Source: an uncultured Bacteroidota bacterium
GTDB taxonomy: Bacteria; Bacteroidota; Bacteroidia; 2-12-FULL-35-15
Assembly: GCA_903926385.1 (NCBI GenBank)
Contig: CAIYIS010000076.1
Location: forward strand, 1 to 64,000
Length of the DNA stretch: 64,000 bases
Direction: 5' to 3'
Shown: positions 24,945-51,339 of the stretch, in pieces
How positions within the stretch are numbered: the stretch's first letter is position 1
Layout: every line of letters starts with the position of its first letter
Notes under the pieces: model-generated
Databases searched by the model: none
Told to the model about the DNA's origin: nothing
Seen by the model: only the letters and a program-made list of their open reading frames with translations
Position numbers and translations under genes: made by a program

Positions 24945-25355
24945 TTATACTCTTCTTCTTTTTGGAGGACGGCAACCATTGTGAGGAATAGGAGTGATGT
25001 CCATAATTTCGCTCACTTCGATACCAGCACCTGCAATTGTACGAATTGCAGATTCACGACCACCACCTGGTCCTTTTACAAAAACTTTTACTCTTCTTAA
25101 ACCTAAATCGTGTGCCACTTTAGCACAGTCTTGAGCAGCAAGCTGAGCGGCATAAGGAGTATTTTTTTTCGAACCACGGAATCCCATTTTTCCGGCACTC
25201 GACCAGGAAATAACTTGTCCCGAATTATTGGTTAATGAAATAATGATATTGTTAAACGTAGCATTGATGTGAGCTTGTCCCACTGCATCCACTTTTACAA
25301 CTCTTTTTTTCGCAACTGCCTTTGCGGCTGTTGTTGCCTGATTTGTTTTTGCCAT
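24945..25355 (-). CDS. rpsK: Ribosomal protein S11
   Basis: The start at 25355 ([12 protein letters not shown]) is chosen. An in-frame extension to 25412 only translates the heptameric spacer ([11 protein letters not shown]) and is not conserved protein. This gives 136 residues. S11 forms part of the 30S platform. [50 protein letters not shown] and the C-terminal [28 protein letters not shown] are standard. It lies between rpsM and rpsD in the alpha operon. Confidence 0.97.
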
Positions 25356-25366
25356 TTTTTTTATTT

Positions 25367-25436
25367 TGAGATTTGAGATTCGAGATTTGAGATTTGAGAA
25401 ACGATTTCTCAATACTAAAATCTACTATCTAACTTC
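25367..25436. repeat. 7-bp phased tract between rpsM and rpsK
   Basis: Ten heptamers in register: TGAGATT, TGAGATT, CGAGATT, TGAGATT, TGAGAAA, CGATTTC, TCAATAC, TAAAATC, TACTATC, TAACTTC. The same word family and left-right mirroring as in the rpoA-rplQ spacer are seen. Confidence 0.88.
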
Positions 25437-25440
25437 TATT

Positions 25441-25818
25441 TTATTTAGTTACTTTTTTCTTGTTTGCAACAGTTTTACGTTTACCTTTTCTGGTACGTGC
25501 ATTGTTTTTGGTAGTTTGCCCGCGAACCGGAAGACCCAAACGGTGACGAATACCTCTGTAACTTCCGATATCCATTAATCGTTTAATGTTTAACTGAACT
25601 TCAGAACGTAATGCTCCTTCAAGTTTATATTTTTCACTCAAGATATTACGAATATCAGTCAATTGTTTATCATTCCAATCTTGTACTTTGGTATCAAAAT
25701 CAATTCCTGCTTCAGTCAATACTTTACGAGCAGTACTGCGGCCTATTCCGAAAATATAAGTTAAGCCTATTTCGCCTCTTTTGTTGTTTGGTAAGTCAAT
25801 ACCTGCAATTCTTGCCAT
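25441..25818 (-). CDS. rpsM: Ribosomal protein S13
   Basis: The product has 125 residues. [38 protein letters not shown] is the family N-terminus, followed by helices and the basic tail [35 protein letters not shown] that contacts tRNA and the head of the 30S subunit. The length is typical. It follows rpmJ by 13 bp and precedes rpsK, the usual order. Confidence 0.98.
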
Positions 25819-34075: not shown

Positions 34076-34183
34076 TCTGTTTTTAAAACCCGAAATATGT
34101 TGTTTAGTTCAATCTAATTATTGGCTAAACACTATGGTTTTAATTATGTTTTCAATAAAAACAATACAGTAAAATTAGTCACG

Positions 34184-36310
34184 ATGAGTACAACACCTAA
34201 AAAACACTTAACAACCCCAGTGAATCAACTTGATTCATTGTTCAAACCAAAATCGATTGCAATCATTGGAGCATCATCCAAAGATTTATCAATTGGAAAT
34301 GTAATTATTAAAAACCTTGTTCATTTTGGATACAAAGGGCCTATTTACCCTATCAATCCTAAAGAACCCGAAATAAGAGGAATAAAAGCCTACCCAACTA
34401 TTTTCGATGTGCCTCACGATATTGATGCAGCACATGTAATCATTCCGAGCAAATTTGTTCCTCAGATAATAGAAGATTGCGGAAAAAAAGGAATTAAATC
34501 TGTTATCATCAATTCAGCTGGATTCAGCGAAATGGGCGAAGAAGGAGTAGCTTTACAAAAAGCATTTTTGGCAAAAGCAAAAGAATATGGTGTGCGCATC
34601 TTTGGCCCAAACTGCCAGGGCATCATCAATTGCGACCCTGATTACAATGCGTATTGCGATTTTACATTCACCTTTCCTAAACCAGGTTCCATCTCTATAG
34701 TAGCGCTGAGTGGCGGTGTGGGTGCATTCATCATGCAAAGTTTATTCGACCTCGATATCGGAATGCGCATGTATGCATCTAATGGAAACGCCTGCGATGT
34801 GTCGATTTCGGATGTGGTGAATTATTACGGAGATGACGATGGAACAAAAGCAATCATCCTTTATACCGAAGGTTTTGCTAATCCAAAAGAGTTTATGGAA
34901 ACCGCGAAAAAAGTGGCGAAGAAAAAACCGATACTTGCCATGAAAGCAGGGCGTACCGAAGAAGGCGCTAAAGCAGCCGCCTCTCACACCGGTTCGCTGG
35001 CAGGAGTGGATATTGCTACCGAACTCATTTTCGAGAAAACAGGAATGCTTGCGTTTAACAACGAAGAAGAGATGTGTCAAACAGCGATGGCTTTTTCTAC
35101 ACAGCCTATACCGAAAGGCAATCGTGTTGGAATCATCACCAACACAGGCGGTCCGGCTGTGATAGCTACTGACGAGCTGGTAAGTGCCGGACTCGAAATA
35201 CCTGCATTATCAGCCAAAGCAAAAGAAATACTTACCGCCACTCAATTGCCGGAGGCCAGCATTGGCAATCCCATTGATGTGGTAGCAACCGGTGGTGGTG
35301 CGCATTTCCGCAGTGCATTAGATGTGCTGATGAACGAAGATACTATCGATTCTATTTATATCAATTTTGTAACTGCACCGTTTACCGACACTGACGAAGT
35401 GGCGCGACAAATAGTGGAAGTAAACAAAATGAAAAAGAAACCTATTGTGTGCAATTTCATGACCAACATGAGCATGGAGCGCTATCAGGTAACAGCAAAA
35501 ATAATGAAAGATGGTGGTGTGCCTTGTTATGCATTCCCTACTACGGCTGCCAAAGCGCTGGGTGCTTTGTACAAATATCACAAGGTAAGTTCTCGCAACA
35601 TTGGCGAAGCTCGCGAATTTACCGACATCAAAAAAGATGTGGCATTGGCCATCATCAACAATGCAAAAGAAGAAGGAAAAACATTTTTATGTTCTTCGGA
35701 TGTGTATCAATTACTCGAAGAATATGGTATTCCGGTTGCCGACTGGCGTGTGGCCAACTCGGCTGACGAAGCAGTGAAAGGTGCCGAAGCCATTGGATTT
35801 CCGGTGGTGATTAAAGTAGATGCCGAATCATTGGTTCACAAAAGCGATTTGGGCGGAGTGGTGATAAATCTCAAGACTGCTGCCGATGTGCGCGCTACTG
35901 TTGAGAAAATGAAAGCTCAGTTTGATGCTCCCGATTTAAAATTCTTTGTTCAGAAATTTTTGCCCGGAGGAAGAGAACTCATAGCAGGTGTGAGTGCCAA
36001 AAAAGATTTGGGACACCTCATTATGTTTGGTATTGGCGGCATCTATGTAGAAGTGTTGAAAGATGTTGTTTTCAAAATAGCACCTGTGACGGAAGTTGAA
36101 GCCACAGAAATGTTGGCAAAAATAAAAGCTACCAAACTACTGGATGGGGTGCGTGGCGAAAAAGCAATTCACAAAGCAAGTGTTATCGAAATCATTCAGC
36201 GCTTGTCGCAACTGGTTTGCGACTTGCCAATGATTGAAGAAATGGATTTGAACCCTATCATGGCTTTCGGAGACAAAGCATTTGTGGTGGATGCACGTAT
36301 CAAGATTTAG
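34184..36310 (+). CDS. ADP-forming acetate/acyl-CoA synthetase (fused alpha-beta)
   Basis: The ATG at 34184 (MSTTPKKHLTT) is preferred; a longer frame from 34121 adds 21 non-conserved residues. The 708-residue product has the CoA-binding Rossmann domain (SIAIIGASSKDLSIGNVI, about 22-115) and the succinyl-CoA-ligase-like domain with the phospho-histidine segment ASHTGSLAG. An ATP-grasp domain covers the last 220 residues (VIKVDAESLVHKSDLGGVV). Such enzymes convert acyl-CoA + ADP + Pi to acid + ATP, or the reverse, in fermenters. It is 86 bp ahead of an HgdB-type gene, suggesting acyl-CoA fermentation. Acyl specificity is unknown. Confidence 0.88.
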   Translation: MSTTPKKHLTTPVNQLDSLFKPKSIAIIGASSKDLSIGNVIIKNLVHFGYKGPIYPINPKEPEIRGIKAYPTIFDVPHDIDAAHVIIPSKFVPQIIEDCGKKGIKSVIINSAGFSEMGEEGVALQKAFLAKAKEYGVRIFGPNCQGIINCDPDYNAYCDFTFTFPKPGSISIVALSGGVGAFIMQSLFDLDIGMRMYASNGNACDVSISDVVNYYGDDDGTKAIILYTEGFANPKEFMETAKKVAKKKPILAMKAGRTEEGAKAAASHTGSLAGVDIATELIFEKTGMLAFNNEEEMCQTAMAFSTQPIPKGNRVGIITNTGGPAVIATDELVSAGLEIPALSAKAKEILTATQLPEASIGNPIDVVATGGGAHFRSALDVLMNEDTIDSIYINFVTAPFTDTDEVARQIVEVNKMKKKPIVCNFMTNMSMERYQVTAKIMKDGGVPCYAFPTTAAKALGALYKYHKVSSRNIGEAREFTDIKKDVALAIINNAKEEGKTFLCSSDVYQLLEEYGIPVADWRVANSADEAVKGAEAIGFPVVIKVDAESLVHKSDLGGVVINLKTAADVRATVEKMKAQFDAPDLKFFVQKFLPGGRELIAGVSAKKDLGHLIMFGIGGIYVEVLKDVVFKIAPVTEVEATEMLAKIKATKLLDGVRGEKAIHKASVIEIIQRLSQLVCDLPMIEEMDLNPIMAFGDKAFVVDARIKI

Positions 36311-36396: not shown

Positions 36397-37638
36397 ATGG
36401 CAAACGAAGCAAAAAAAGAACAGTACAAAATTCATTCGACAGATGTAATGAAAAAAATAATGGGTGAATATTTTCTTTCACTCGAAACAGGAAAAAAGAA
36501 AATAGCATGGTGTACCAGTGTGGGGCCGGCAGAATTGCTGCGTTCGTTTGGGTTCGAAGTGTATTTTCCCGAAAATCATGGTGCATTATTGGGCGCTACA
36601 CGCACCGCTATGGATTATATTCCCGAAGCTATTAAATGCGGCTACTCCGGCCATGTGTGTTCTTACACCACTGCCGACATTGGTTCTTACCTCAAAAAAG
36701 AAAGTCCGCTTCAAAAACATTATGGCATGAAAGGCGCTCCAAAGCCCGATATCATTGCCTACAACACCAATCAATGCCGCGAGGTGGAAGACTGGTTTGA
36801 ATATTTTGCAGAAGAGTTCAAATGCCCTATTGTAGGCATTCAGCCTCCGCGCCACCTTGACGAAATTACGCAAGACGAAATTGATGTGGTAGTAAAACAG
36901 TTCAAAAAAATGATACCCGTTTGCGAGCAGGTAAGCGGTAATAAATTCGACCTTGATAAATTTAAAGATGTAGTACGATTGAGCAAAGAAGCCACTTTGC
37001 TTTGGCAAAAAGTATTGAAAACATCTACTGCCATGAATGCACCGCTTAGCTTTTTTGACGGAACCATTCACATGGGCCCTATTGTAGTGCTTCGCGGCAC
37101 ACAAGTGGCCAAAGACTATTACACCGGCCTTTTGAAAGAACTCGAAGAAAATGTAAAAAACAATATTGGATTTTTGCCTCAGGCCAAATTGCGTATATTC
37201 TGGGAAGGCATGCCAATATGGGGAAAACTGCGTATGTTCAGCGATTTGTTTAATGCCAACCATGCCGCTGTGGTGGCTTCTACGTATTGCAGCAGCTGGG
37301 TGTTCGATAAGTTTGACGAAAACGACCCTTGGCAATCGACAGCGAAAGCCTATACCGAAATCTTTATCAACCGCAGCGAGAAAGCCAAAATGAAAATGCT
37401 TTCGGAATGGTTTAAAGAATTTAAAATTGATGGCATTGTTTATCACGACTCCAAAACATGTTTCAATAACTCTAATGCTAAATTTGGTATGCCGGGCCGT
37501 TTGTCGGCCATTACAGGGGTTCCTTCGCTTATTATCGAAGGCGATTTATGCGACCTTCGTTTCTTCTCCGAAGGACAAAGTATTACTAAAATCGAAACTT
37601 TCTTAGAACAACTGGAGGAAAGTAAGGCGATGGCGTAA
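36397..37638 (+). CDS. 2-hydroxyacyl-CoA dehydratase / benzoyl-CoA reductase family subunit (HgdB/BcrC-like)
   Basis: The product has 413 residues of the HGD-D superfamily. Candidate cluster ligands are Cys39 (AWCTSVGPAELL), Cys127 (NTNQCREVEDWF) and Cys355 (HDSKTCFNN), at the expected places. IQPPRHLDE and SFFDGTIHMGP are also present, and the C-terminal EGDLCDLRFFSEGQ matches the family GD-x-x-D-x-R pattern. These subunits carry a [4Fe-4S] cluster and act as a pair after one-electron activation by an HgdC-type ATPase. Only one subunit gene is in the window, while an HgdC domain occurs at 48.2 kb. It follows the ADP-forming synthetase on the same strand and ends at a strong terminator. Confidence 0.82.
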   Translation: MANEAKKEQYKIHSTDVMKKIMGEYFLSLETGKKKIAWCTSVGPAELLRSFGFEVYFPENHGALLGATRTAMDYIPEAIKCGYSGHVCSYTTADIGSYLKKESPLQKHYGMKGAPKPDIIAYNTNQCREVEDWFEYFAEEFKCPIVGIQPPRHLDEITQDEIDVVVKQFKKMIPVCEQVSGNKFDLDKFKDVVRLSKEATLLWQKVLKTSTAMNAPLSFFDGTIHMGPIVVLRGTQVAKDYYTGLLKELEENVKNNIGFLPQAKLRIFWEGMPIWGKLRMFSDLFNANHAAVVASTYCSSWVFDKFDENDPWQSTAKAYTEIFINRSEKAKMKMLSEWFKEFKIDGIVYHDSKTCFNNSNAKFGMPGRLSAITGVPSLIIEGDLCDLRFFSEGQSITKIETFLEQLEESKAMA

Positions 37639-37886: not shown

Positions 37887-38690
37887 TTATGAAACGCTTT
37901 TTTGATTAAAAAAATATAAAGACGATGCAGTTAAAGCATAAGTAGGAGCCAAAAACCAGCCCACAACGGGAATGAGTAACAAAAACATAAATCCAAGACC
38001 TATTGAAAACATGAAAGGTTTGTTTTGAGAATAAAACTTTTTGCTTTCTTTTAGATTATAGCCTTCTCTTTCCAATGAATAATCTGTCATTAATATTCCA
38101 TTGTAATATGCCTGCACAATAAAGGTGAGCAATGGAGCGATAATACCAACAATGGGAATTAATTTAATCAAAGTTATTAATAGTGCAAATCCCAACTGTT
38201 TTATTGAATTTGTGATAGAGAGCGCAAGGCCTCTTTTTATTTCTTTTATCCAAGCCATAATTTTGAAGGGCTTTGATGTTTTGGTGAGAATAGAATGAAT
38301 TTTCTCACTGATAAATGAAAAATAAGAAGTCCCAACAATCAAAAACAGGGAAGTGAAAATACTGTCTTTATTAGAATCAATAGCATTTTTTAGCAACCAG
38401 AACGCAGCTTTTATTCCTATTTTAAAATCTTCAATACTAAAATTGAAAAAGCCTAATGTGTTTTTTACTACCCAATTTGTCAGCCATGGCTCAAAATTCT
38501 CAATTCCGATAATTATTGCTTTTATGCTGATAGAAAATATCAATAGAAATAATGCACCTGAAATAAGAAGATATTTTGTCAATTTATGCTTCAAAATAAA
38601 ATGATGTGCATCAAAAAAAAACGCAAGACCTTTTAAGATTTTTAAATTGTATTCTTTTGATTGTTTTTTTATTTTTTCAAAATTGAGCAT
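37887..38690 (-). CDS. EI24/CysZ-like multipass membrane protein
   Basis: The start at 38690 (MLNFEKIKKQSKEYN) is chosen. The longer frame to 38822 would overlap the RND gene and has no conserved content. The 267-residue product has about four to five hydrophobic segments. The C-terminal half fits the EI24/CysZ pattern: RGLALSITNSIKQLGFALLI, LIKLIPIVGIIAPLLTFIVQAYYNGILMTDY and a terminal GWFLAPTYALTASSLYF. Members include sulfate permease-like CysZ, but the substrate here is unknown. It starts 2 bp after the RND pump stop codon and is the last gene of that minus-strand operon. Confidence 0.72.
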   Translation of the reverse strand: MLNFEKIKKQSKEYNLKILKGLAFFFDAHHFILKHKLTKYLLISGALFLLIFSISIKAIIIGIENFEPWLTNWVVKNTLGFFNFSIEDFKIGIKAAFWLLKNAIDSNKDSIFTSLFLIVGTSYFSFISEKIHSILTKTSKPFKIMAWIKEIKRGLALSITNSIKQLGFALLITLIKLIPIVGIIAPLLTFIVQAYYNGILMTDYSLEREGYNLKESKKFYSQNKPFMFSIGLGFMFLLLIPVVGWFLAPTYALTASSLYFFNQKSVS

Positions 38691-38692
38691 AA

Positions 38693-41600
38693 CTATCCTT
38701 TTGCATTTATTTTTTCTTTTAAAGTATCTACCAAATAATAAATCATTGGCACTAAAAATACTGTCAAAATTAAAGAAGAAAGTAGTCCTCCAATTATTAC
38801 CCAAGCTAGTCCGTTTTTCCATTCCGCAGCTGTACCTGTGGCCATTGCAATGGGCAACATACCTACAACCATTGAAAGTGTGGTCATCAAAATGGGTCGC
38901 ATTCGACTTTTCCCCGCAACGATTAAAGCCTTCTTAAAGTTGTTGCCTTCTGCTTTTAATTGATTTGTGAAATCAACAATTAGGATAGCATTTTTTACCA
39001 CTAATCCCATAAGCATTATTAGTCCCAATAAAGCGAAAAGACTCAGGTTGCTTAATGATAGGTTCAGTGCTAAAAACGCTCCGATGGCTGCAAGAGGAAT
39101 AGAAAACAAGACTACAAACGGGTAAATAAAATTGTCGTAAAGTGCCACCATAATGAGATAAATCAGCAAAAAGGAAATCAGCAAAACAGAACCTAATGCT
39201 CCGAAACTATCATTCTGCCTTTTGATGTCGCTGCCCCAAGTCATCTGTATTCCTTTTGGTAGTGGATTTTTTTTAAGATAAGTAACTACATCATCGGCCA
39301 CTGTTCCTGAAGGTCTTCCCAACGCATCTGAAGTTAATGTAACTGCGGGTTGCCGGTCTTTCCTTTCTAGTAATGACGGAGAATTGTCTTGCACAACACT
39401 TGCAAATTGTGAAACTTCTACCGGTGCTCCCATAGGGTTGATAAAGGAAAGGTGTTGAACGTCCTCAAAGTTTTTTCGGCTGAATTCATCAAGCCAAATC
39501 CGCACAGGATATTCTGTTCCCTTTTCGGAAAGTACAGCATCGTCATTTCCTGTTAATGCAGTTCTAATAGTCATTCCCACACTGGCTGTTGTTAACCCCA
39601 ATCGCTGCATCTTATCTTTATCAGGAATTATCTTGTATTCCGGGCTTCCCGTTTCAACTGACAAACGCACATTATCTGCACCTGGCATTTTTTCAATAGC
39701 AGACTTTAACTCGTTTCCGCTTTTCATAACTTGATTAATATCGCTTCCGCTTAATGTAATTTCAATGGGTGCAGAACGTGGAATTAAACCTAAGGCCGCC
39801 ATTGAATAATTAATCCCGGGGAATTTTAATTTCAAATCTTCTCGTAGTTTTTTCATGAATGTTTCTGTCGGCATGTTTTTTAGTTCCTTTTTCGGCTTCA
39901 ATTGAATGGTAAATTCTGTTTTGTTTGCCGCACCAACTCCTAAACTGCCGATACCTGTGCTTGGTCCGCCAATGTTGCTGAATAGAGTTGCAACTTCAGG
40001 TTGTTCTAAAATATAAGATTCAATTTTTTGAGATGTTTGATTGTTTTCTTGAATAGAGGCCGATTTGTCAAATTCTAAAGCCATTCTGAATTTGCCTTGG
40101 TCACCTGTTGAAATTAATTCTTTGCCTATAATTCCCTGCTTCATTATACCTGCAGTCATTACAAAAAGAACCAAAATAATCCCTGTAAAAAAGAGTTTGT
40201 GACTTAACACCCATTCCAATTGTTTTCCATACCAATTGGTAAAATTTTCTAATTGATGTTCAAACCAAAGCAGGAAACGATTAAAATAGTTAGTAGGTAA
40301 TAAATCTTCTTTCTTCCCTATTCGAGAAGCTAACCAAGGTGTGAGCGTGAAGCCAACCAGCAAACTTGTAAGAGTGGAAGTGATAACGACCACCGAAAAT
40401 TGTTTGAGCATGTCGGCAACAAAAACCTGTAAGAAAAGAATGGGTAAAAAAACCACTACGTCAACCAGTGTAATAGATAAGGCAGCGAATCCTATTTCCA
40501 TTCTGCCATCCATAGCAGCCACTCGTTTGTCTTTTCCTTTGTCCAGATGTTTTTGTATGTTCTCCAATACTACAACCGCATCGTCAACAAGAATACCAAT
40601 GATTAATGACATGGCCAGCAGAGTCATCAAGTTGAGTGTATAGCCCAGAATCCACATAACTGCAAATGCTGTAATTAAAGAAGTGGGAATAGCAACAATC
40701 ACAATCAAAGAATTCCTGAAACTTCTAAGAAATAAAAGCAGCACAATTGAAACTAATATGACCGCTAAAAACAAATCAAAAACAACTGAATTAACGGCTG
40801 CAATAGTATTGTCGGTGCTGTCATCTGCAATAATGAATTTTGTTTCTGAACTTGAATTTTGTTCTTCAATCGATGTAAATTTTGCACGAACTAATTTTGA
40901 AACATCCACAGCATTGGCATCGCCTTGTTTTTTCAACATTAAACCAATTCCATTTTTGCCATTGTATCTGCTGATGGAAGTTGTTTCTTTTATGCCATCA
41001 ATTACTGTCGCTACATCTTTTACGTACACAGGGCTTCCGGCAAGTGGCAATGCTATCTGAACATTCTTTATGTCTTCTATACTTGCGAATTTCCCGGTCA
41101 AACGAACTGAATTATTCTCTTTATTTGTCAGTACTTTTCCGGCCGGTAAGTCTATCCCTGAACGATTAATTGCTTCAACAATTTGATACAACGAAATCTT
41201 GTAAAGTTTCAAATTGTTTTGATTTACTTTCACTTCTATTTCTCTTTCTTCACCGCCAAGAAGAGTAATTTCTGCTACCCCCTTTATTTGTTTAATTTGG
41301 GGCAGATACTCATCTTTCATTTTTTGGTAAAATTCGGTAGGCGATAAATTACTTGTCGCGCTTATAGAGATTATCGGTAAATCATTTGGTGAAACTTTGC
41401 TCATCACAGGACTTAAAATATCCTGTGGTAAATCCTTTCGTATATTGTCTATGTAACGTTGAGCATCTTGCATTGTTTTATCTAAATCCGTTCCGTACTT
41501 AAGGTTGGCTATAATAATTGATGCATTGGGCAAAGATTTTGTAACCAAATAGTCTACCCCTTCTAAATTAGCTAATGCATCTTCTATTTTTCGCGAAACA

Positions 41601-41785
41601 GAAGTTTCCACTTCATTAGGCTCCGCACCGGGATAAACTGTTTTTATTACTACTACCGGTTGATTAAAGTCGGGCATTAATTCATAACTCAGATTTTTGT
41701 AACCGATAAAACCCAATAGAAAAAATATGCTGAAAAGTACAATAATCAGCGAAGGTCGTTTGATGGAAATTTCTGTAATATTCAT
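38693..41785 (-). CDS. RND-family efflux permease (AcrB/HAE-like)
   Basis: The product has 1030 residues with two homologous halves, each one TM helix, a large periplasmic loop and a bundle of TM helices. The N-terminus (ISIKRPSLIIVLFSIFFLLGFIGYKNLSYELMPDFNQPVVVI) and the TM4 proton-relay region GILVDDAVVVLENIQKHLDKG with its Asp pair are diagnostic. The C-terminal half ends LILTVFLVPMIYYLVD. It exports drugs or lipophiles using proton motive force with the adaptor and TolC-like proteins encoded immediately upstream. The whole set follows a TetR gene, which probably represses it. Confidence 0.95.
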   Translation of the reverse strand: MNITEISIKRPSLIIVLFSIFFLLGFIGYKNLSYELMPDFNQPVVVIKTVYPGAEPNEVETSVSRKIEDALANLEGVDYLVTKSLPNASIIIANLKYGTDLDKTMQDAQRYIDNIRKDLPQDILSPVMSKVSPNDLPIISISATSNLSPTEFYQKMKDEYLPQIKQIKGVAEITLLGGEEREIEVKVNQNNLKLYKISLYQIVEAINRSGIDLPAGKVLTNKENNSVRLTGKFASIEDIKNVQIALPLAGSPVYVKDVATVIDGIKETTSISRYNGKNGIGLMLKKQGDANAVDVSKLVRAKFTSIEEQNSSSETKFIIADDSTDNTIAAVNSVVFDLFLAVILVSIVLLLFLRSFRNSLIVIVAIPTSLITAFAVMWILGYTLNLMTLLAMSLIIGILVDDAVVVLENIQKHLDKGKDKRVAAMDGRMEIGFAALSITLVDVVVFLPILFLQVFVADMLKQFSVVVITSTLTSLLVGFTLTPWLASRIGKKEDLLPTNYFNRFLLWFEHQLENFTNWYGKQLEWVLSHKLFFTGIILVLFVMTAGIMKQGIIGKELISTGDQGKFRMALEFDKSASIQENNQTSQKIESYILEQPEVATLFSNIGGPSTGIGSLGVGAANKTEFTIQLKPKKELKNMPTETFMKKLREDLKLKFPGINYSMAALGLIPRSAPIEITLSGSDINQVMKSGNELKSAIEKMPGADNVRLSVETGSPEYKIIPDKDKMQRLGLTTASVGMTIRTALTGNDDAVLSEKGTEYPVRIWLDEFSRKNFEDVQHLSFINPMGAPVEVSQFASVVQDNSPSLLERKDRQPAVTLTSDALGRPSGTVADDVVTYLKKNPLPKGIQMTWGSDIKRQNDSFGALGSVLLISFLLIYLIMVALYDNFIYPFVVLFSIPLAAIGAFLALNLSLSNLSLFALLGLIMLMGLVVKNAILIVDFTNQLKAEGNNFKKALIVAGKSRMRPILMTTLSMVVGMLPIAMATGTAAEWKNGLAWVIIGGLLSSLILTVFLVPMIYYLVDTLKEKINAKG

Positions 41786-41797
41786 TTTTTGCTGAAA

Positions 41798-42868
41798 TTA
41801 TTTTACCGTTACATTAGCACCGTTAAAAAGATTAATAAACCCATTAGTTATCATCACATCACCAGCTTTCAAGCCTCCGGAAACAATTGCCTTGTTTTGA
41901 GTTCGGCTCAAAATGGTTATGTTTTGCACCATGGCTTTTCCATTTTTAATCAGATATACTTGAGGTTGATTTGCCGGACCTGTGATAGTTGATGATGATA
42001 TAACAATACCCTTTTCAGATGTAATTGTTTTCAAATTTACTTTACCAAACATCCCCGATTTTATTTTCATATCAGGTGTGTTACTCACTGTAAACTGAAT
42101 GGGGAAGCTGCTTCCGGCATTAGCTTTACTTCCTATCATTGTTGTTACTCCATTTAGCACTATTTCTGAATAAGCATCTGTTGTTACTTGATAGCTTTGG
42201 TTAACTACAAACAGTTTCAATTCGTTTTCAGAAACATTTGCAGTAAATTTCAAATTGGAGATGTCTGTTATCTGTAGTAACGGAACCCCAGGTGCTGCAA
42301 AAGCTCCGGCTTCGGTCAATTTGGAAGTAACTATTCCTTTAAACGGAGCCTTGATGAGTGTCTTATTTATTTGTTCTAGCAATGTAGCTCGCTGAACTTT
42401 TGCTGATTTTAAAGCCAACTCAGCTTTCTCAAGTTGTACTCCTTGTATAGCGTCTGCTTTTGTTAAAACAGAATAACGATTTACATCGGCTTCCAAACCT
42501 TCAATTTGTAATTCCGTAGTTTGTAATTGAAATTTAAGTAGTGAATTGTCCAGTTGAATCAATGCCTGGCCTTGGGTGACATTACTTCCAATATCAACTA
42601 ATACATCATTTATTTTGCCTTGAACTTCAGCACTTATTTTTGTTTCCTTATTGGGTTCAAATGTTCCCGAAAAAAACAAATCGGCATCCAGATTTTCAAT
42701 TTGTATCGTGTCAGCCAAAACAGGTATAGGCTTTTCAATATCGTATTGATAAACTTTTTGAAGTGTAATTTCTTTATTACTTTTTAGTCGAATTACCATA
42801 GCAGCTACTAATGCCAGTGGAATAAGAACGTATACTGTTTTTTTTAGAACAGATGATTTTGTATTCAT
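41798..42868 (-). CDS. RND efflux periplasmic adaptor (membrane fusion protein)
   Basis: The product has 356 residues. An N-terminal membrane anchor (about 11-24) is followed by the barrel-sandwich/lipoyl halves (EVQGKINDVLVDIGSNVTQGQALIQLD and IKAPFKGIVTSKLTEAGAFAAPGVPLLQI) on either side of a long coiled-coil hairpin (about 125-170). Beta-barrel domains come next. It connects the RND pump to the outer-membrane channel. It lies 8 bp after the TolC-like gene and 12 bp before the pump gene. Confidence 0.93.
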   Translation of the reverse strand: MNTKSSVLKKTVYVLIPLALVAAMVIRLKSNKEITLQKVYQYDIEKPIPVLADTIQIENLDADLFFSGTFEPNKETKISAEVQGKINDVLVDIGSNVTQGQALIQLDNSLLKFQLQTTELQIEGLEADVNRYSVLTKADAIQGVQLEKAELALKSAKVQRATLLEQINKTLIKAPFKGIVTSKLTEAGAFAAPGVPLLQITDISNLKFTANVSENELKLFVVNQSYQVTTDAYSEIVLNGVTTMIGSKANAGSSFPIQFTVSNTPDMKIKSGMFGKVNLKTITSEKGIVISSSTITGPANQPQVYLIKNGKAMVQNITILSRTQNKAIVSGGLKAGDVMITNGFINLFNGANVTVK

Positions 42869-42876
42869 TGTATATA

Positions 42877-44202
42877 TTATTTATGTGTTATGGTATTTCC
42901 TGTAAGTTTTTTCAGTTCTAAATCTGCTTTCAAATAGTCTATAATAGCCGTTAAACGCCCTTGCTGTGCATCTCTTAATGCATTGTCAGCAAGTAAAACA
43001 TCAGTCAGTGCTGCTGTTCCTTGTTTTTGCTGAAGCAGGGTTTGTTCAAAAATCGTTTGTGCCAATTTGATTTGTTCATTTGCAGGGTCTATCATTTTCA
43101 AAGCGGATGTACGTTGCAGTCTTGCATTTTCAACCTGCATATTGATTTGTTCGGAGAGCAGTCCCGCTTGTAATTCATTATTGAGCAACTCAATTTTTTT
43201 CTGATGCATCTTTCTTTGTGTTACTGTGCCATTAAAAAGGGGATAGGTCATTTGAATACCACCGTAACCAATGGGGTAGAATTTCAGAAAATCATTTGGT
43301 TTCTTATCGTACCCAAACCCCGTTGTTCCATAGCTCCCTATCAGCTGAAACGAAGGTAAAAATCTGGAATAGTTCAGTATTTTAAGTTCGTTCGACAATA
43401 ATCGGTTTTGAGTATTTGTAATTTGAACTTCGGTTGAAGGAACTGTTTTGTAGTCAATCGTATTTTCATATTGAATAACGGTGTCCGGTTGAATATCTTT
43501 TTGTAGTGAAACACCCATCGCGAATTTCAACGCATTCAGAATTTGAATATATTTATTGTTTAAATTCTCTTTCTGTAAGGTTAATTGCATTTCCTGCAAT
43601 TTCAATTTGCTCACATCCGTTCCTTTGGCCAGAAGTTGTTCATGCAGCAGTTGCATGTTTTTAAGCAATCTTTCCGTATTCAAGAGATTGCTTTTAACAA
43701 AACCCAATTGATGATAAATTATTTGCGCGTTGTAATAAAGTGTTGATATTTCAACATAAATCTGTTCTTCTGTTTTTCGGTATTGCAATGCCGTTAATTC
43801 AGAAACTATTTCCGCTGACTGGATGGCACCGTATACCTGCGGGCTATACAATGGCATTGATAACTGAATATTCCCGTTGATGCTATGAGGCACTCCGAAC
43901 TGCGCTTCTTTAAATTTCCCTTCCGGCCCCCCAAAAACCGATAAGGGCATTAATTGATAGGGCAAATCAGTAAAATACTTGTAATCGGCATTGGTTGTTA
44001 TTTTTGGAATGAGATTGCCTTTTGCTTCCTTTTCTTTCTCCTCTCCAATTTTTATGTTGTTATTGTTTATTTGAAGGTTTTTGTTTCCTGTCCATGCGGT
44101 ATCAATACATTTCTGAAGCGGCCATATTTGCCCCTGAACGGCATTGATACTCATTAATGAAAACAACAGAAGTACTATTCGTGTGTGAATGTTTACTAAC
44201 AT
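42877..44202 (-). CDS. TolC-family outer-membrane efflux protein
   Basis: The product has 441 residues with a signal peptide (about 1-24, ending AVQG). Two repeats of long helices with heptad-like L/A/Q spacing and short beta-strands follow, typical of TolC/OprM channels: WPLQKCIDTAWTGNKNLQINNNNIKIGEEKEKEAKGNLIPKI at the start and TALTDVLLADNALRDAQQGRLTAIIDYLKADLELKKLTG at the end. It provides the outer-membrane exit of the RND pump encoded downstream. Confidence 0.92.
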   Translation of the reverse strand: MLVNIHTRIVLLLFSLMSINAVQGQIWPLQKCIDTAWTGNKNLQINNNNIKIGEEKEKEAKGNLIPKITTNADYKYFTDLPYQLMPLSVFGGPEGKFKEAQFGVPHSINGNIQLSMPLYSPQVYGAIQSAEIVSELTALQYRKTEEQIYVEISTLYYNAQIIYHQLGFVKSNLLNTERLLKNMQLLHEQLLAKGTDVSKLKLQEMQLTLQKENLNNKYIQILNALKFAMGVSLQKDIQPDTVIQYENTIDYKTVPSTEVQITNTQNRLLSNELKILNYSRFLPSFQLIGSYGTTGFGYDKKPNDFLKFYPIGYGGIQMTYPLFNGTVTQRKMHQKKIELLNNELQAGLLSEQINMQVENARLQRTSALKMIDPANEQIKLAQTIFEQTLLQQKQGTAALTDVLLADNALRDAQQGRLTAIIDYLKADLELKKLTGNTITHK

Positions 44203-48224: not shown

Positions 48225-50054
48225 ATGAAAAAGAACAATAAGTTAAAAGTGGGAGTGATAGGCCTGGGGCCGGTGGGGATGATACTGGCAGTGAAACTGC
48301 ACGAAGCAGGCTGCGATGTGGCCTTGTGTGAGGTGAACGAAACGAAGGCAAAAAAAATAAAATCGGACGGGCTGGTGCTGGAAAACATGATGGCTGCCAC
48401 AGCACAGTTTGAGAATGTGTTTACTTCGATATCGCAGTTTGAGGGCTGGGATGCGGACTATTTGTTTTTTGCATTAAAAAGCACCCATACGGCCGGAGCG
48501 GTGAAACAGGCGATGGCATTGAATACGGAGAAACTAACTGTGGTGAGTGCTCAGAACGGAATAGAGGTGGAAGAGCTGGTGGCAGCAGGTTTTGGCGAAT
48601 CGAAAACATTGCGGATGATTATAAACTATGCCGGAAACAGCAGTACGCCAAACATAACTAAGGTTACGTTTTTTAATCCGCCCAATTACATAGGTTCGAT
48701 AAACGATGCCCGCGCGGAGCAAGCCAAAAAGATAGCCGATGTGCTGACTTCGGTAGGTTTGGAGACCAAAGCGGTGGATTCGTTTGAGATTGTAAAACGA
48801 AGCTGGGAAAAAACGATATTGAATGCCGCCTTGAGTCCGCTATGCGGAGTGGGGAGGCTAACGATGCTGGAAGCCATGAGCGACCCTGATACGGTGGAAC
48901 TGGTGGAGCAGATTATTCGCGAAGGAATACAAGTGGCGGATGCCGAAAAAATATATTTCCCCGATAATTTTACCCGTACCTGTTTGAAGTATTTGAAAAA
49001 CGGTGGAGACCATTTCCCTTCGCTGGCGGTGGATTTGATAAACAACCGACCAACGGAGATAGATTACCTGAACGGAAAAATAGTGGAGTACGGAAGGAAG
49101 CACTACATCCGCACATCGCTGAACTTGTCGTTTACCAACATGGTGAAAGCGATGACCAATAAAAACATCATATCGCGTGTGCCCGGTGCGGCAGGCGAAG
49201 TGAACAAACGGATATTGGAAAAAGGACTTGCCAACAAAGCAGCCGGTGTGGCGGCTTTTAAGAACATCGATTGTTTTCTGGGAATAGATTTGGGTTCGGC
49301 TTTCACAAAATTCTGTGTGATGGATGCCAATGGAATTGCGGTGTTTCGCTATTTCCTGCCATCGTTGAGCAACGACAAACAAGCTTTGAAAAATGTGATG
49401 ACAACGATTGCCACTAATTTTAATATCAAATCGAGTTGCGCTACAGGCTACGGCCGCAAGCACTTTGCCGATACTGACATTATAAAAACCGAAATAAGTT
49501 GTGCGGCAGCAGCGGTGTCGTATCTGCATCCGGGCGAAAAAAACATTATTGATATAGGAGGCGAAGACATCAAAATAATCCGTTGCGACAAGGACAACAA
49601 TGTGCTTAATTTTTACATGAACGATAAATGCGCTGCCGGTACAGGCTCTTTTCTGGCCGAGATAGCAGAGCGCGCCAACATCAACATTGCCGAAATGAGC
49701 AGCATGGCTTCGCTGTCGAAATACGATAAAGAGTTGAACAGTTTTTGTACGGTGTTTGCCAAAACCGAAATCATGAATTGGATTTTTGACGGAATGACAA
49801 ACGAAGATATTTCGAAAGGAATTTATATTTCGATAGCCAACAAAGTAGCCAAGATGCGCCTCGATCCGGGCATTCCAACCTATATGATAGGCGGAGTGAT
49901 AGCTCACCATCCTTACCTTCAGGTATTGCTCAACGAAATGTTTAAGAAAGATATTCTGATTATCGACAGCCCTCAACATGCCGTGTCGTATGGTGCTGCA
50001 GTGTTGGCTCAACAGAACTATGCAAAACAAAATAAAGAAACAAATAACGAGTAA
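48225..50054 (+). CDS. Fusion of ketopantoate-reductase-like dehydrogenase and HgdC/BcrA-type ATPase activator
   Basis: The product has 609 residues in two complete domains. Residues 1-325 are a PanE/ApbA-type reductase: GLGPVG nucleotide motif at 13-18, SAQNG near 108-112, KRSWEKTILNAALSPL at 191-206 and NRPTEIDYLNG at 274-284. Residues 348-609 are an ASKHA ATPase of the BadF/BadG/BcrA/HgdC type: GIDLGSAFTK at 353-362, DIGGEDIK at 443-450, and the two cluster-ligand cysteines Cys469 (DKCAAGTGSF) and Cys508 (SFCTVFAKTE). The second domain would transfer electrons into an HgdB-type dehydratase such as the one at 36.4 kb. The first could supply a 2-hydroxyacid. A thiolase gene follows 25 bp later. 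Confidence 0.85.
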   Translation: MKKNNKLKVGVIGLGPVGMILAVKLHEAGCDVALCEVNETKAKKIKSDGLVLENMMAATAQFENVFTSISQFEGWDADYLFFALKSTHTAGAVKQAMALNTEKLTVVSAQNGIEVEELVAAGFGESKTLRMIINYAGNSSTPNITKVTFFNPPNYIGSINDARAEQAKKIADVLTSVGLETKAVDSFEIVKRSWEKTILNAALSPLCGVGRLTMLEAMSDPDTVELVEQIIREGIQVADAEKIYFPDNFTRTCLKYLKNGGDHFPSLAVDLINNRPTEIDYLNGKIVEYGRKHYIRTSLNLSFTNMVKAMTNKNIISRVPGAAGEVNKRILEKGLANKAAGVAAFKNIDCFLGIDLGSAFTKFCVMDANGIAVFRYFLPSLSNDKQALKNVMTTIATNFNIKSSCATGYGRKHFADTDIIKTEISCAAAAVSYLHPGEKNIIDIGGEDIKIIRCDKDNNVLNFYMNDKCAAGTGSFLAEIAERANINIAEMSSMASLSKYDKELNSFCTVFAKTEIMNWIFDGMTNEDISKGIYISIANKVAKMRLDPGIPTYMIGGVIAHHPYLQVLLNEMFKKDILIIDSPQHAVSYGAAVLAQQNYAKQNKETNNE

Positions 50055-50079: not shown

Positions 50080-51339
50080 ATGAAAGGATTTCACGACAAG
50101 AAAAAAGGAATAGCCATAACGTATGACGATATTTATTTAATAAATGGAGCCAGAACACCATTTGGCAAGCTATGCGGCACATTGGGTAATGTGTCGCCAA
50201 CCGATTTGGGAATTTACGCTTCGCGCGAAGCATTAAAGAAATCAGGTGTTACAGGCGATGACATCGACCAGGTGATGTATGCCAATATTGGGCAGAGTTC
50301 GGCCGATACGTATTTCCTTCCGCGCCACATTGCTTTGTATTCGGGCATTCCGCAAGAAATTCCGGCTATCATGTTGCAGCGTATTTGCGGTTCGGGTTTC
50401 GAAACCATTATTTCGGGAGCGGAGCAAATCACGTTAGGTAAAGCCAGTACCGCGATGTGCGGAGGTACTGAAAACATGACCTTGTCACCAACCGTTAGTT
50501 TTGGAAATCGTAACGGATACGCATTGGGTAAAATAAATTTTCAGGATATGCTGTGGGAAGCGCTTAACGACACCGCTGCTGTGCCGATGGGTTGCACTGC
50601 CGAAAACGTAGCGGCCAAACATGGAATAACAAAAGAAGATGCAAATACCTTTGCAAAACTTTCTATCGACCGTTACCTGGCTGCAAAAGCAAGAGGATAT
50701 TTTGATGATGAAGTAGTGAAAATGAATTCTACCGTATTTGAAGTAGAAGGTTTGAATCCTAGAAAAGTATTCTTACCGAAAAATACAGTTGATTTTACAG
50801 CTGACGAAAATGTTCGTCCAGCTGATTTGGCAGCTATGGCTAAATTGCCATCGGTATTTGCCAGAGATGGTGTGCAAACAGCAGCCAACTCGAGCGGTAT
50901 AGTGGATGGTGCAGCCACAGTAGTAATCGGTAATGGTGATTTTATAAAAGCAAAAGGATTGAAACCTTTGTCGCGAATTGTAGCTTCTGCCACCAGCGCT
51001 TTAGACCCACGAGTGATGGGATTGGGCCCTGTGCCTTCCATCCGTTTGGTATTGGAAGTAGCAGGTTTAAAATTATCCGACATAGGATTAATAGAAATCA
51101 ATGAAGCTTTTGCAGCTCAGTTTATCGGTTGTGAGCGCGAACTTGGATTGGACAGAAATATATGCAATGTAAACGGTGGTGCCATTGCCTTGGGTCATCC
51201 TCTCGGAGCTACAGGCACTCGTTTGTCGTTAACCATTTCTCGCGAAATGAAAGCACGCAAAGTAAGATATGGTATTGCATCGGCTTGTATTGGAGGAGGT
51301 CAGGGAACAGCTATTTTGTTCGAAAACATGGAAGCGTAA
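50080..51339 (+). CDS. Thiolase (acetyl-CoA C-acyltransferase)
   Basis: The product has 419 residues. Thiolase active-site residues are Cys103 (LQRICGSGFE), His373 (GGAIALGHPLGATG) and Cys403 (ASACIGGGQGTA), with the family N-terminus INGARTPFGKLCGTLG. There is an extra N-terminal segment of about 18 residues relative to typical 390-residue enzymes. It condenses or cleaves 3-ketoacyl-CoA. It is translationally close to the reductase-activator fusion and probably in one operon. The combination with an ADP-forming synthetase and an HgdB-like dehydratase suggests an anaerobic acyl-CoA pathway. The direction is not known. Confidence 0.92.
   Translation: MKGFHDKKKGIAITYDDIYLINGARTPFGKLCGTLGNVSPTDLGIYASREALKKSGVTGDDIDQVMYANIGQSSADTYFLPRHIALYSGIPQEIPAIMLQRICGSGFETIISGAEQITLGKASTAMCGGTENMTLSPTVSFGNRNGYALGKINFQDMLWEALNDTAAVPMGCTAENVAAKHGITKEDANTFAKLSIDRYLAAKARGYFDDEVVKMNSTVFEVEGLNPRKVFLPKNTVDFTADENVRPADLAAMAKLPSVFARDGVQTAANSSGIVDGAATVVIGNGDFIKAKGLKPLSRIVASATSALDPRVMGLGPVPSIRLVLEVAGLKLSDIGLIEINEAFAAQFIGCERELGLDRNICNVNGGAIALGHPLGATGTRLSLTISREMKARKVRYGIASACIGGGQGTAILFENMEA

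Follow-up and report, generated by a model that had tools for sequence, protein, structure and literature searches.

A predicted 2-oxoacid reductase–activase fusion encoded with a lone HadB-like subunit in benzoyl-CoA degradation clusters of Bacteroidota

The window analysed here, a 64,000-nucleotide stretch of DNA from an uncultured Bacteroidota bacterium, carries on its forward strand an open reading frame of 609 codons (48225-50054) that starts with ATG and has no internal stop. Its predicted product is a fusion of a PanE/ApbA-type 2-oxoacid reductase with a BadF/HgdC-type activase. The reductase domain, delimited by Pfam and alignment, spans residues 9-310 (48249-49154, forward strand) and comprises ApbA (residues 9-158; 71 bits against a cut-off of 22) and ApbA_C (residues 189-310; 96 bits against 23). 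It is followed by a linker, residues 313-347 (49161-49265, forward strand), defined by alignment length and pLDDT, and by the activase domain, residues 352-595 (49278-50009, forward strand), placed by Pfam, NCBIfam and structure neighbours, where the full BcrAD_BadFG profile is covered (131 bits against 31.5). The NCBIfam models TIGR00745 (apbA_panE, 164 bits) and TIGR00241 (CoA_E_activ, 173 bits) also exceed their curated cut-offs of 141 and 125. By sequence, each domain belongs to a known family, and the assignment of the two halves as 2-oxoacid reductase and activase is well supported. Three further genes of interest lie on the same strand: an NDP-forming acyl-CoA synthetase (34121-36310; CoA_binding, Succ_CoA_lig and ATP-grasp_5 domains), which is the CoA ligase preceding HGD-D in this lineage; a lone HGD-D subunit of 413 aa resembling the active-site subunit HadB (36397-37638); and, directly downstream of the fusion, a thiolase, a BktB-like acyl-CoA C-acyltransferase (50080-51339). 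Within the window, 10.6 kb of unrelated genes separate HGD-D from the fusion. An RND-type efflux operon (inner-membrane pump, adaptor and outer-membrane factor; 37887-44202, opposite strand) is located between them.

Residue invariance was scored in an alignment of 54 full-length fusion homologues. In the activase half, the motifs MNDKCAAGTG and SFCTVFA align with those of HadI, and the cysteines that they contain, Cys469 (codon 49629-49631, forward strand) and Cys508 (codon 49746-49748, forward strand), are invariant. The closest solved structure is HadI itself (4eht, TMt 0.82), the activator of (R)-2-hydroxyisocaproyl-CoA dehydratase, in agreement with the original prediction, which had recognised an HgdC/BcrA-type activator here. 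The complete domain and the two cysteines place this half in the HgdC/HadI activase family, and it would act as an ATP-driven dimer, with Cys469 and Cys508 as the likely ligands of a bridging [4Fe-4S] cluster, that transfers electrons to an HGD-D partner. It is like the HadI/HgdC activators of Clostridioides and Acidaminococcus in its whole fold, ATP-site motifs and two cluster cysteines; those proteins are free-standing, however, whereas the present activase shares its polypeptide with a reductase, and its gene lies with that of a single HGD-D in a benzoyl-CoA cluster. Nor is the fusion one of the four subunits of a class I benzoyl-CoA reductase (BCR), since a complete BcrABCD is encoded besides.

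The N-terminal half is a member of the PanE/ApbA family by its two domains, its GxGxxG motif (residues 13-18) and its catalytic Asn111, Lys196 and Glu278, all of which are invariant, as are Asn200 and Ser266. With both halves complete and their catalytic residues and cluster cysteines conserved throughout the 54 homologues, the claim that 609 residues hold a whole reductase and a whole ATPase stands. The best fold neighbours of the reductase half are a putative Enterococcus faecalis ketopantoate reductase (KPR; 2ew2) and D-mandelate dehydrogenase (5x20, TMt 0.88), and it is nearer to these than to the E. coli ketopantoate reductase; the original prediction had noted that the PanE family includes D-2-hydroxyacid dehydrogenases of lactic acid bacteria. 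The PanE-type D-mandelate dehydrogenase of Enterococcus (3wfi/5x20) has the same fold, GxGxxG motif and aligned catalytic Asn, Lys and Glu at about 24% identity, but is free-standing. Position 36 is Asp or Glu in 37 of the 54 homologues and Val or Ile in the others, hinting at NADH as the cofactor.

Could this half simply be a housekeeping ketopantoate reductase of pantothenate synthesis, fused to an activase by chance? In favour of this, it is the only ApbA_C protein in its own genome and in most fusion genomes, and PanB is present. However, PanB was found in 55 of 59 relatives, most of them without a detectable homologue of the fused reductase, which implies that ketopantoate is reduced otherwise there, for example by IlvC. 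In addition, the gene is located in a benzoyl-CoA cluster, the E. coli enzyme matches only remotely (E 9e-4, compared with 1.6e-20 for 2ew2), and an invariant Ser204 apparently takes the place of Asn184 of E. coli KPR. We regard a chance fusion of this kind as very unlikely.

The fusion is not confined to one assembly. An identical protein (100%) occurs in another assembly (L008/G034), and full-length homologues elsewhere are 52-92% identical. Against the 92% identical homologue (L009), synonymous sites are saturated (pS 0.77-0.87) and dN is 0.04-0.10 in all parts, linker included; over all comparisons, dN is 0.04-0.22, again with saturated synonymous sites. Saturation at synonymous sites together with a low dN in each of the three parts (reductase, linker and activase) shows that both halves and the junction are under selection. 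An assembly artefact, raised as a possibility when the fusion was first noticed, was rejected on the strength of the same or similar fusions in independent assemblies and of the saturated synonymous sites. The same domain order recurs widely: 84 of 90 de-duplicated related loci carry the fusion. A search of genome contigs gave 80 loci. Metagenome-assembled genomes of Bacteroidota account for nearly all of them, and a few carry the labels Ignavibacteria, Chlorobiota, Competibacteraceae or Thermoanaerobaculia. Among 392 genomes drawn evenly from the phylum, BcrB was found in four, and reductase and activase in all four of these; the only other genome of the sample with both (G215) has a BZD-type reductase and no Bcr type. 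A close relative with a fragmented assembly (G031) gave BcrA- and BcrD-like matches, and no fusion was detected in it. Split homologues, which the original prediction had held to count against it if unlinked and in unrelated contexts, do occur: reductase and activase are encoded by neighbouring but separate genes in G015 and G024, lie about 3.8 kb apart within one cluster in G349, and are unlinked in G215.

The linker keeps a constant length in 45 of the 54 homologues (38 residues, 314 to 352), and the lowest pLDDT of the structure model falls within it, at residues 313-322. The model has two confident domains (mean pLDDT 86) whose mutual arrangement is uncertain (pTM 0.54). It had been proposed that the fusion couples the reduction of a 2-oxoacid to the activation of the dehydratase that removes the resulting hydroxyl. 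This idea survives at most as co-expression or co-localisation, since the two reactions have to be bridged by a CoA ligase step and the activase does not act directly on the product of the reductase; the fusion therefore probably serves co-expression or co-localisation and not channelling. Donation of electrons from NAD(P)H to the activase through the reductase domain was rejected on chemical grounds: to our knowledge, this reductase family has no flavin able to split a hydride into single electrons.

To describe the surroundings of the fusion, neighbouring genes were clustered, profiles were built, and all loci were re-annotated by profile search of six-frame translations. The genes form a benzoyl-CoA degradation cluster and follow each other in a conserved order: BcrC-BcrB-BcrA-BcrD, a CoA ligase, the lone HGD-D, the fusion, a thiolase and/or a hydroxyacyl-CoA dehydrogenase/hydratase (HCDH-ECH), Had, Oah and Dch. 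Counting only profile-recognised genes, between which unrelated ones may intervene, the next cluster gene upstream of the fusion is HGD-D in all 86 testable loci, so that the co-occurrence with an HgdB-like subunit anticipated in the original prediction is found; the next gene upstream of HGD-D is the CoA ligase in 79 of 79; and the next gene downstream of the fusion is the thiolase in 48 of 85 loci and HCDH-ECH in 16. Such counts reflect inheritance of a block in what are nearly all metagenome-assembled genomes, and are not independent events. Bcr genes are present in 75 of the 90 loci and Had/Oah/Dch genes in 67. BcrB (645 bits, cut-off 487), Had (447, cut-off 339) and Oah (599, cut-off 464) exceed their NCBIfam cut-offs; BcrC (419, cut-off 421), BcrD (308, cut-off 313), Dch (225, cut-off 293) and BcrA (425, cut-off 578) score below theirs, although each is the sole family listed at its E-value. 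Many clusters have homologues of 4-hydroxybenzoyl-CoA reductase at their flanks, along with an XdhC-like and a MobA-like gene. No canonical benzoate-CoA ligase above cut-off was found in 18 genomes, so that the pathway may start from something other than benzoate. This cluster context, the single alpha-type dehydratase subunit and the intervening CoA ligase step had escaped the original prediction.

In the genome under study the cluster is split over three contigs (C33, C76 and C11). One (C33) holds BcrCBAD with 4-hydroxybenzoyl-CoA reductase; the window contributes two parts, synthetase plus HGD-D (34.1-37.6 kb) and fusion plus thiolase (48.2-51.3 kb); and the third (C11) holds Had, Oah, Dch and HCDH-ECH. 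This genome has retained the parts of the cluster although the block is broken up. An even better natural test of parts kept in spite of a split block is G215, in which HGD-D (C37), two PanE genes (C43 and C116) and the activase (C82) are all unlinked, one PanE gene overlapping an aminotransferase gene; its reductase is of the BZD and not the Bcr type, with BzdN, BzdO and BzdQ above cut-off. A separate observation concerns the third contig of our genome, where genes for caprolactamase/acetophenone carboxylase-related HyuA/HyuB, a RidA-like protein and an acyl-CoA dehydrogenase lie downstream of the hydroxyacyl-CoA dehydrogenase/hydratase (L153:14440-18232); in L012, L030, L043 and further loci, these genes come after the fusion.

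The presumed partner of the activase, the lone HGD-D, resembles HadB. Ser41, Glu59, Cys88, Cys127 and Cys355 are invariant in 47 homologues and align with Ser37, Glu55, Cys84, Cys117 and Cys346 of HadB; the protein thus has the three cysteine cluster ligands, serine and glutamate expected of a dehydratase active site. HadB is also the best match in sequence and profile comparison to solved structures, and the best fold (TM 0.87-0.91). In the tree, the lone HGD-D lies on the active-site side of the HGD-D family (100/100) and groups with HadB (94/87, a moderate support with very long branches). HadB is again the best family model, yet at 219 bits against a curated cut-off of 750, so that by sequence the protein represents a related subfamily and not HadB itself. 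According to published work, BzdO and HadB have one [4Fe-4S]-OH2 cluster held by three cysteines, and in BzdO Glu65 stands beside Ser44 (PMC11971306). A HadC/HgdB-type beta subunit was sought in the 18 genomes and none was found: 16 hold only BcrB, BcrC and the lone HGD-D; in the remaining two, G042 and G215, a BzdNO pair is also present, with a fragment besides in G215. The (R)-2-hydroxyacyl-CoA dehydratases known so far are heterodimers. Since no dedicated beta partner was found, the lone HGD-D may work either as a homodimer or paired with a Bcr subunit.

Two additional cysteines of this subunit deserve mention: Cys298 is invariant and Cys385 nearly so, and both are absent from HadB, MbdO and BcrB. 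In the alignment, Cys298 shares its column with a cysteine of BzdN and DCCP, which are double-cubane subunits. A double-cubane reading was nevertheless rejected: of the six cysteines of an [8Fe-9S] centre only Cys88, Cys127, Cys298 and Cys355 match the DCCP/BzdN columns, Cys298 is the only one of these in the second-cubane columns, and Cys39 lies two columns off.

These features allow another explanation, in which the lone HGD-D would stand in for the usual catalytic subunit in the reduction of another aryl-CoA, as a variant benzoyl-CoA reductase acting perhaps with BcrC; the fused activase would then feed HGD-D while the reductase acts on an unrelated 2-oxoacid. The position of HGD-D inside a BCR cluster, its relatedness to BCR active-site subunits, the fact that 16 of the 18 genomes have no beta subunit apart from those of Bcr, and the extra Cys298 and Cys385 would all suit such a role. 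However, its nearest family model, fold and tree neighbour are those of HadB and not of BcrB, and Ser41 is shared with HadB and BzdO but missing from BcrB and MbdO. Moreover, a 2-oxoacid reductase in the same polypeptide as the activase fits a 2-hydroxyacyl-CoA best. We consider a variant aryl-CoA reductase unlikely.

The loci thus encode two complete domains, a cognate HadB-like HGD-D, a CoA ligase, a thiolase and a complete Bcr/Had/Oah/Dch set. The reading that we favour, with somewhat more confidence than doubt, is that the fusion assists benzoyl-CoA degradation as an auxiliary enzyme with two functions, converting an arylpyruvate to the (R)-aryllactate and activating an HGD-D dehydratase on the way through cinnamoyl-CoA to benzoyl-CoA. 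The pathway would proceed as follows: (i) the N-terminal domain would take up a 2-oxoacid, most likely one formed from an aromatic amino acid (phenylpyruvate or 4-hydroxyphenylpyruvate), and reduce it with NAD(P)H to the (R)-2-hydroxyacid, the D-(R) stereochemistry that (R)-2-hydroxyacyl-CoA dehydratases require. (ii) The ligase would form (R)-aryllactyl-CoA. (iii) The C-terminal domain, as an ATP-hydrolysing dimer with its bridging [4Fe-4S] cluster, would inject one low-potential electron into HGD-D, which as a ketyl-radical enzyme would remove water to give cinnamoyl-CoA or coumaroyl-CoA. (iv) Enoyl-CoA hydratase/3-hydroxyacyl-CoA dehydrogenase and thiolase would yield benzoyl-CoA or 4-hydroxybenzoyl-CoA, with acetyl-CoA split off. 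(v) 4-Hydroxybenzoyl-CoA reductase and then BcrABCD would dearomatise the ring. The hosts are presumably anaerobic or facultative Bacteroidota.

It is the genomic context that points to phenylpyruvate or 4-hydroxyphenylpyruvate as the substrate of the reductase. Because the central metabolite of the cluster is benzoyl-CoA, an arylpyruvate is the substrate that would give this order of steps its meaning, and 4-hydroxyphenylpyruvate, leading to 4-hydroxybenzoyl-CoA, fits a cluster that holds a reductase for the latter. Further hints come from the missing benzoate-CoA ligase, from the aminotransferase gene that overlaps a PanE gene in G215, from another near the fusion in L039 and L014/L116, and from a tryptophanase/tyrosine phenol-lyase relative directly 3' of it in L023 and L074. 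On the other hand, such amino-acid genes adjoin the fusion in a handful of loci only, the ligase could activate benzoate or 4-hydroxybenzoate instead, and the thiolase and HCDH are required anyway for 3-hydroxypimelyl-CoA.

Genes for 2-oxoacid:ferredoxin oxidoreductases of the KorAB type, present in a minority of the clusters, bear on two other explanations. In the first, the substrate would be aliphatic, for example 2-oxoglutarate reduced to (R)-2-hydroxyglutarate and converted to glutaconyl-CoA, a route that would join the lower benzoyl-CoA pathway or serve as an electron sink; the best-known HGD-D enzymes do use 2-hydroxyglutaryl-CoA. However, most loci lack KorAB, which in known benzoate degraders also gives reduced ferredoxin to BCR; the reductase half is similar to D-mandelate dehydrogenase, whose substrates are aryl and branched 2-oxoacids; and the module co-occurs with BCR genes, so that an aliphatic substrate seems to us decidedly improbable. 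In the second, the reductase half would work oxidatively, as an (R)-mandelate dehydrogenase whose product, phenylglyoxylate, is converted to benzoyl-CoA by a 2-oxoacid:ferredoxin oxidoreductase, with the activase serving an unrelated reaction. The same likeness to D-mandelate dehydrogenase would speak for it, but it leaves the accompanying HGD-D and activase without a role and calls on oxidoreductases that few of the loci have; we give it hardly any credence.

The reading in which an arylpyruvate is reduced and dehydrated has a close counterpart in Clostridium sporogenes, where FldABC and its activator follow the same proposed logic, from arylpyruvate through (R)-aryllactate and aryllactyl-CoA to cinnamoyl-CoA by an HGD-D enzyme and activase. 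Clostridium reduces cinnamate to phenylpropionate and uses a heterodimeric FldBC with a CoA transferase. The Bacteroidota system differs from FldABC in that one polypeptide carries both reductase and activase, dehydration would fall to a lone alpha-type subunit, and the clusters hold a ligase gene and ring-reduction genes. The class I benzoyl-CoA reductases (BcrABCD, BzdNOPQ, MbdNOPQ) belong to the same HGD-D and BcrAD superfamily, but the fusion and the lone HGD-D, HadB-like and with Ser41, are additional to their four subunits, a complete BcrABCD being encoded in the same cluster. The double-cubane cluster protein (DCCP) and its reductase DCCP-R likewise combine a single-type HGD-D subunit with one separate activase, yet the lone HGD-D differs from DCCP in carrying the catalytic PEN glutamate.

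The chemistry of each step is already known separately, and a paper on benzene degradation, in which the clostridial phenyllactate dehydratase is cited, outlines identical final steps in a different connection (PMC13416013). In the literature searched, whose scope left out most subscription journals, we did not find the fusion, a beta-less single-subunit dehydratase or their placement in a benzoyl-CoA cluster described. Anaerobic conversion of phenylalanine to benzoyl-CoA is known to run by oxidative routes via phenylacetate, and Bacteroidota are not known for linking amino-acid breakdown to full ring degradation. With a little less confidence than an even chance would allow, we propose an undescribed anaerobic pathway in this phylum, the complete degradation of phenylalanine and tyrosine with a reductive start, leading from arylpyruvate through (R)-aryllactate, aryllactyl-CoA and cinnamoyl-CoA to benzoyl-CoA and ring reduction. 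It would be run by the fusion and a single-subunit dehydratase that lacks a beta subunit and possibly contains an atypical Fe-S centre in which Cys298 and Cys385 take part, or shares BcrC. If true, a reductive route through aryllactyl-CoA and cinnamoyl-CoA into class I BCR would be a new link between the chemistry of amino-acid fermentation and full aromatic ring degradation, whose marker gene would be that of the reductase–activase fusion; a dehydratase that needs no beta subunit would offer a tractable model for electron movement in this radical family.

Several other features of these clusters were observed. A free-standing copy (about 150-190 aa) of the C-terminal domain of AMP-forming ligases is present in 32 of 34 loci with the NDP-forming synthetase and in none of 44 with a full-length AMP ligase; examples are L104:7-576 on the forward strand (C33 of our genome, about 25007-25576), L014, L037, L040 and L044. 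Five cysteines (CHY, CFCPR, GKCLxGC) are conserved in both the free-standing and the in-ligase forms, which suggests that the domain has a job of its own, perhaps metal-binding. BZD-type benzoyl-CoA reductase genes, with BzdN and BzdO above cut-off, occur in two genomes of the phylum (L147:9089-13219 and L113:3333-6585), and G042 has both the Bcr and the Bzd types. Finally, in a handful of loci the usual thiolase is replaced by a pair consisting of a divergent thiolase and, after it, a 696-aa protein with no Pfam match at E 1e-10 (L031:13068-15158).
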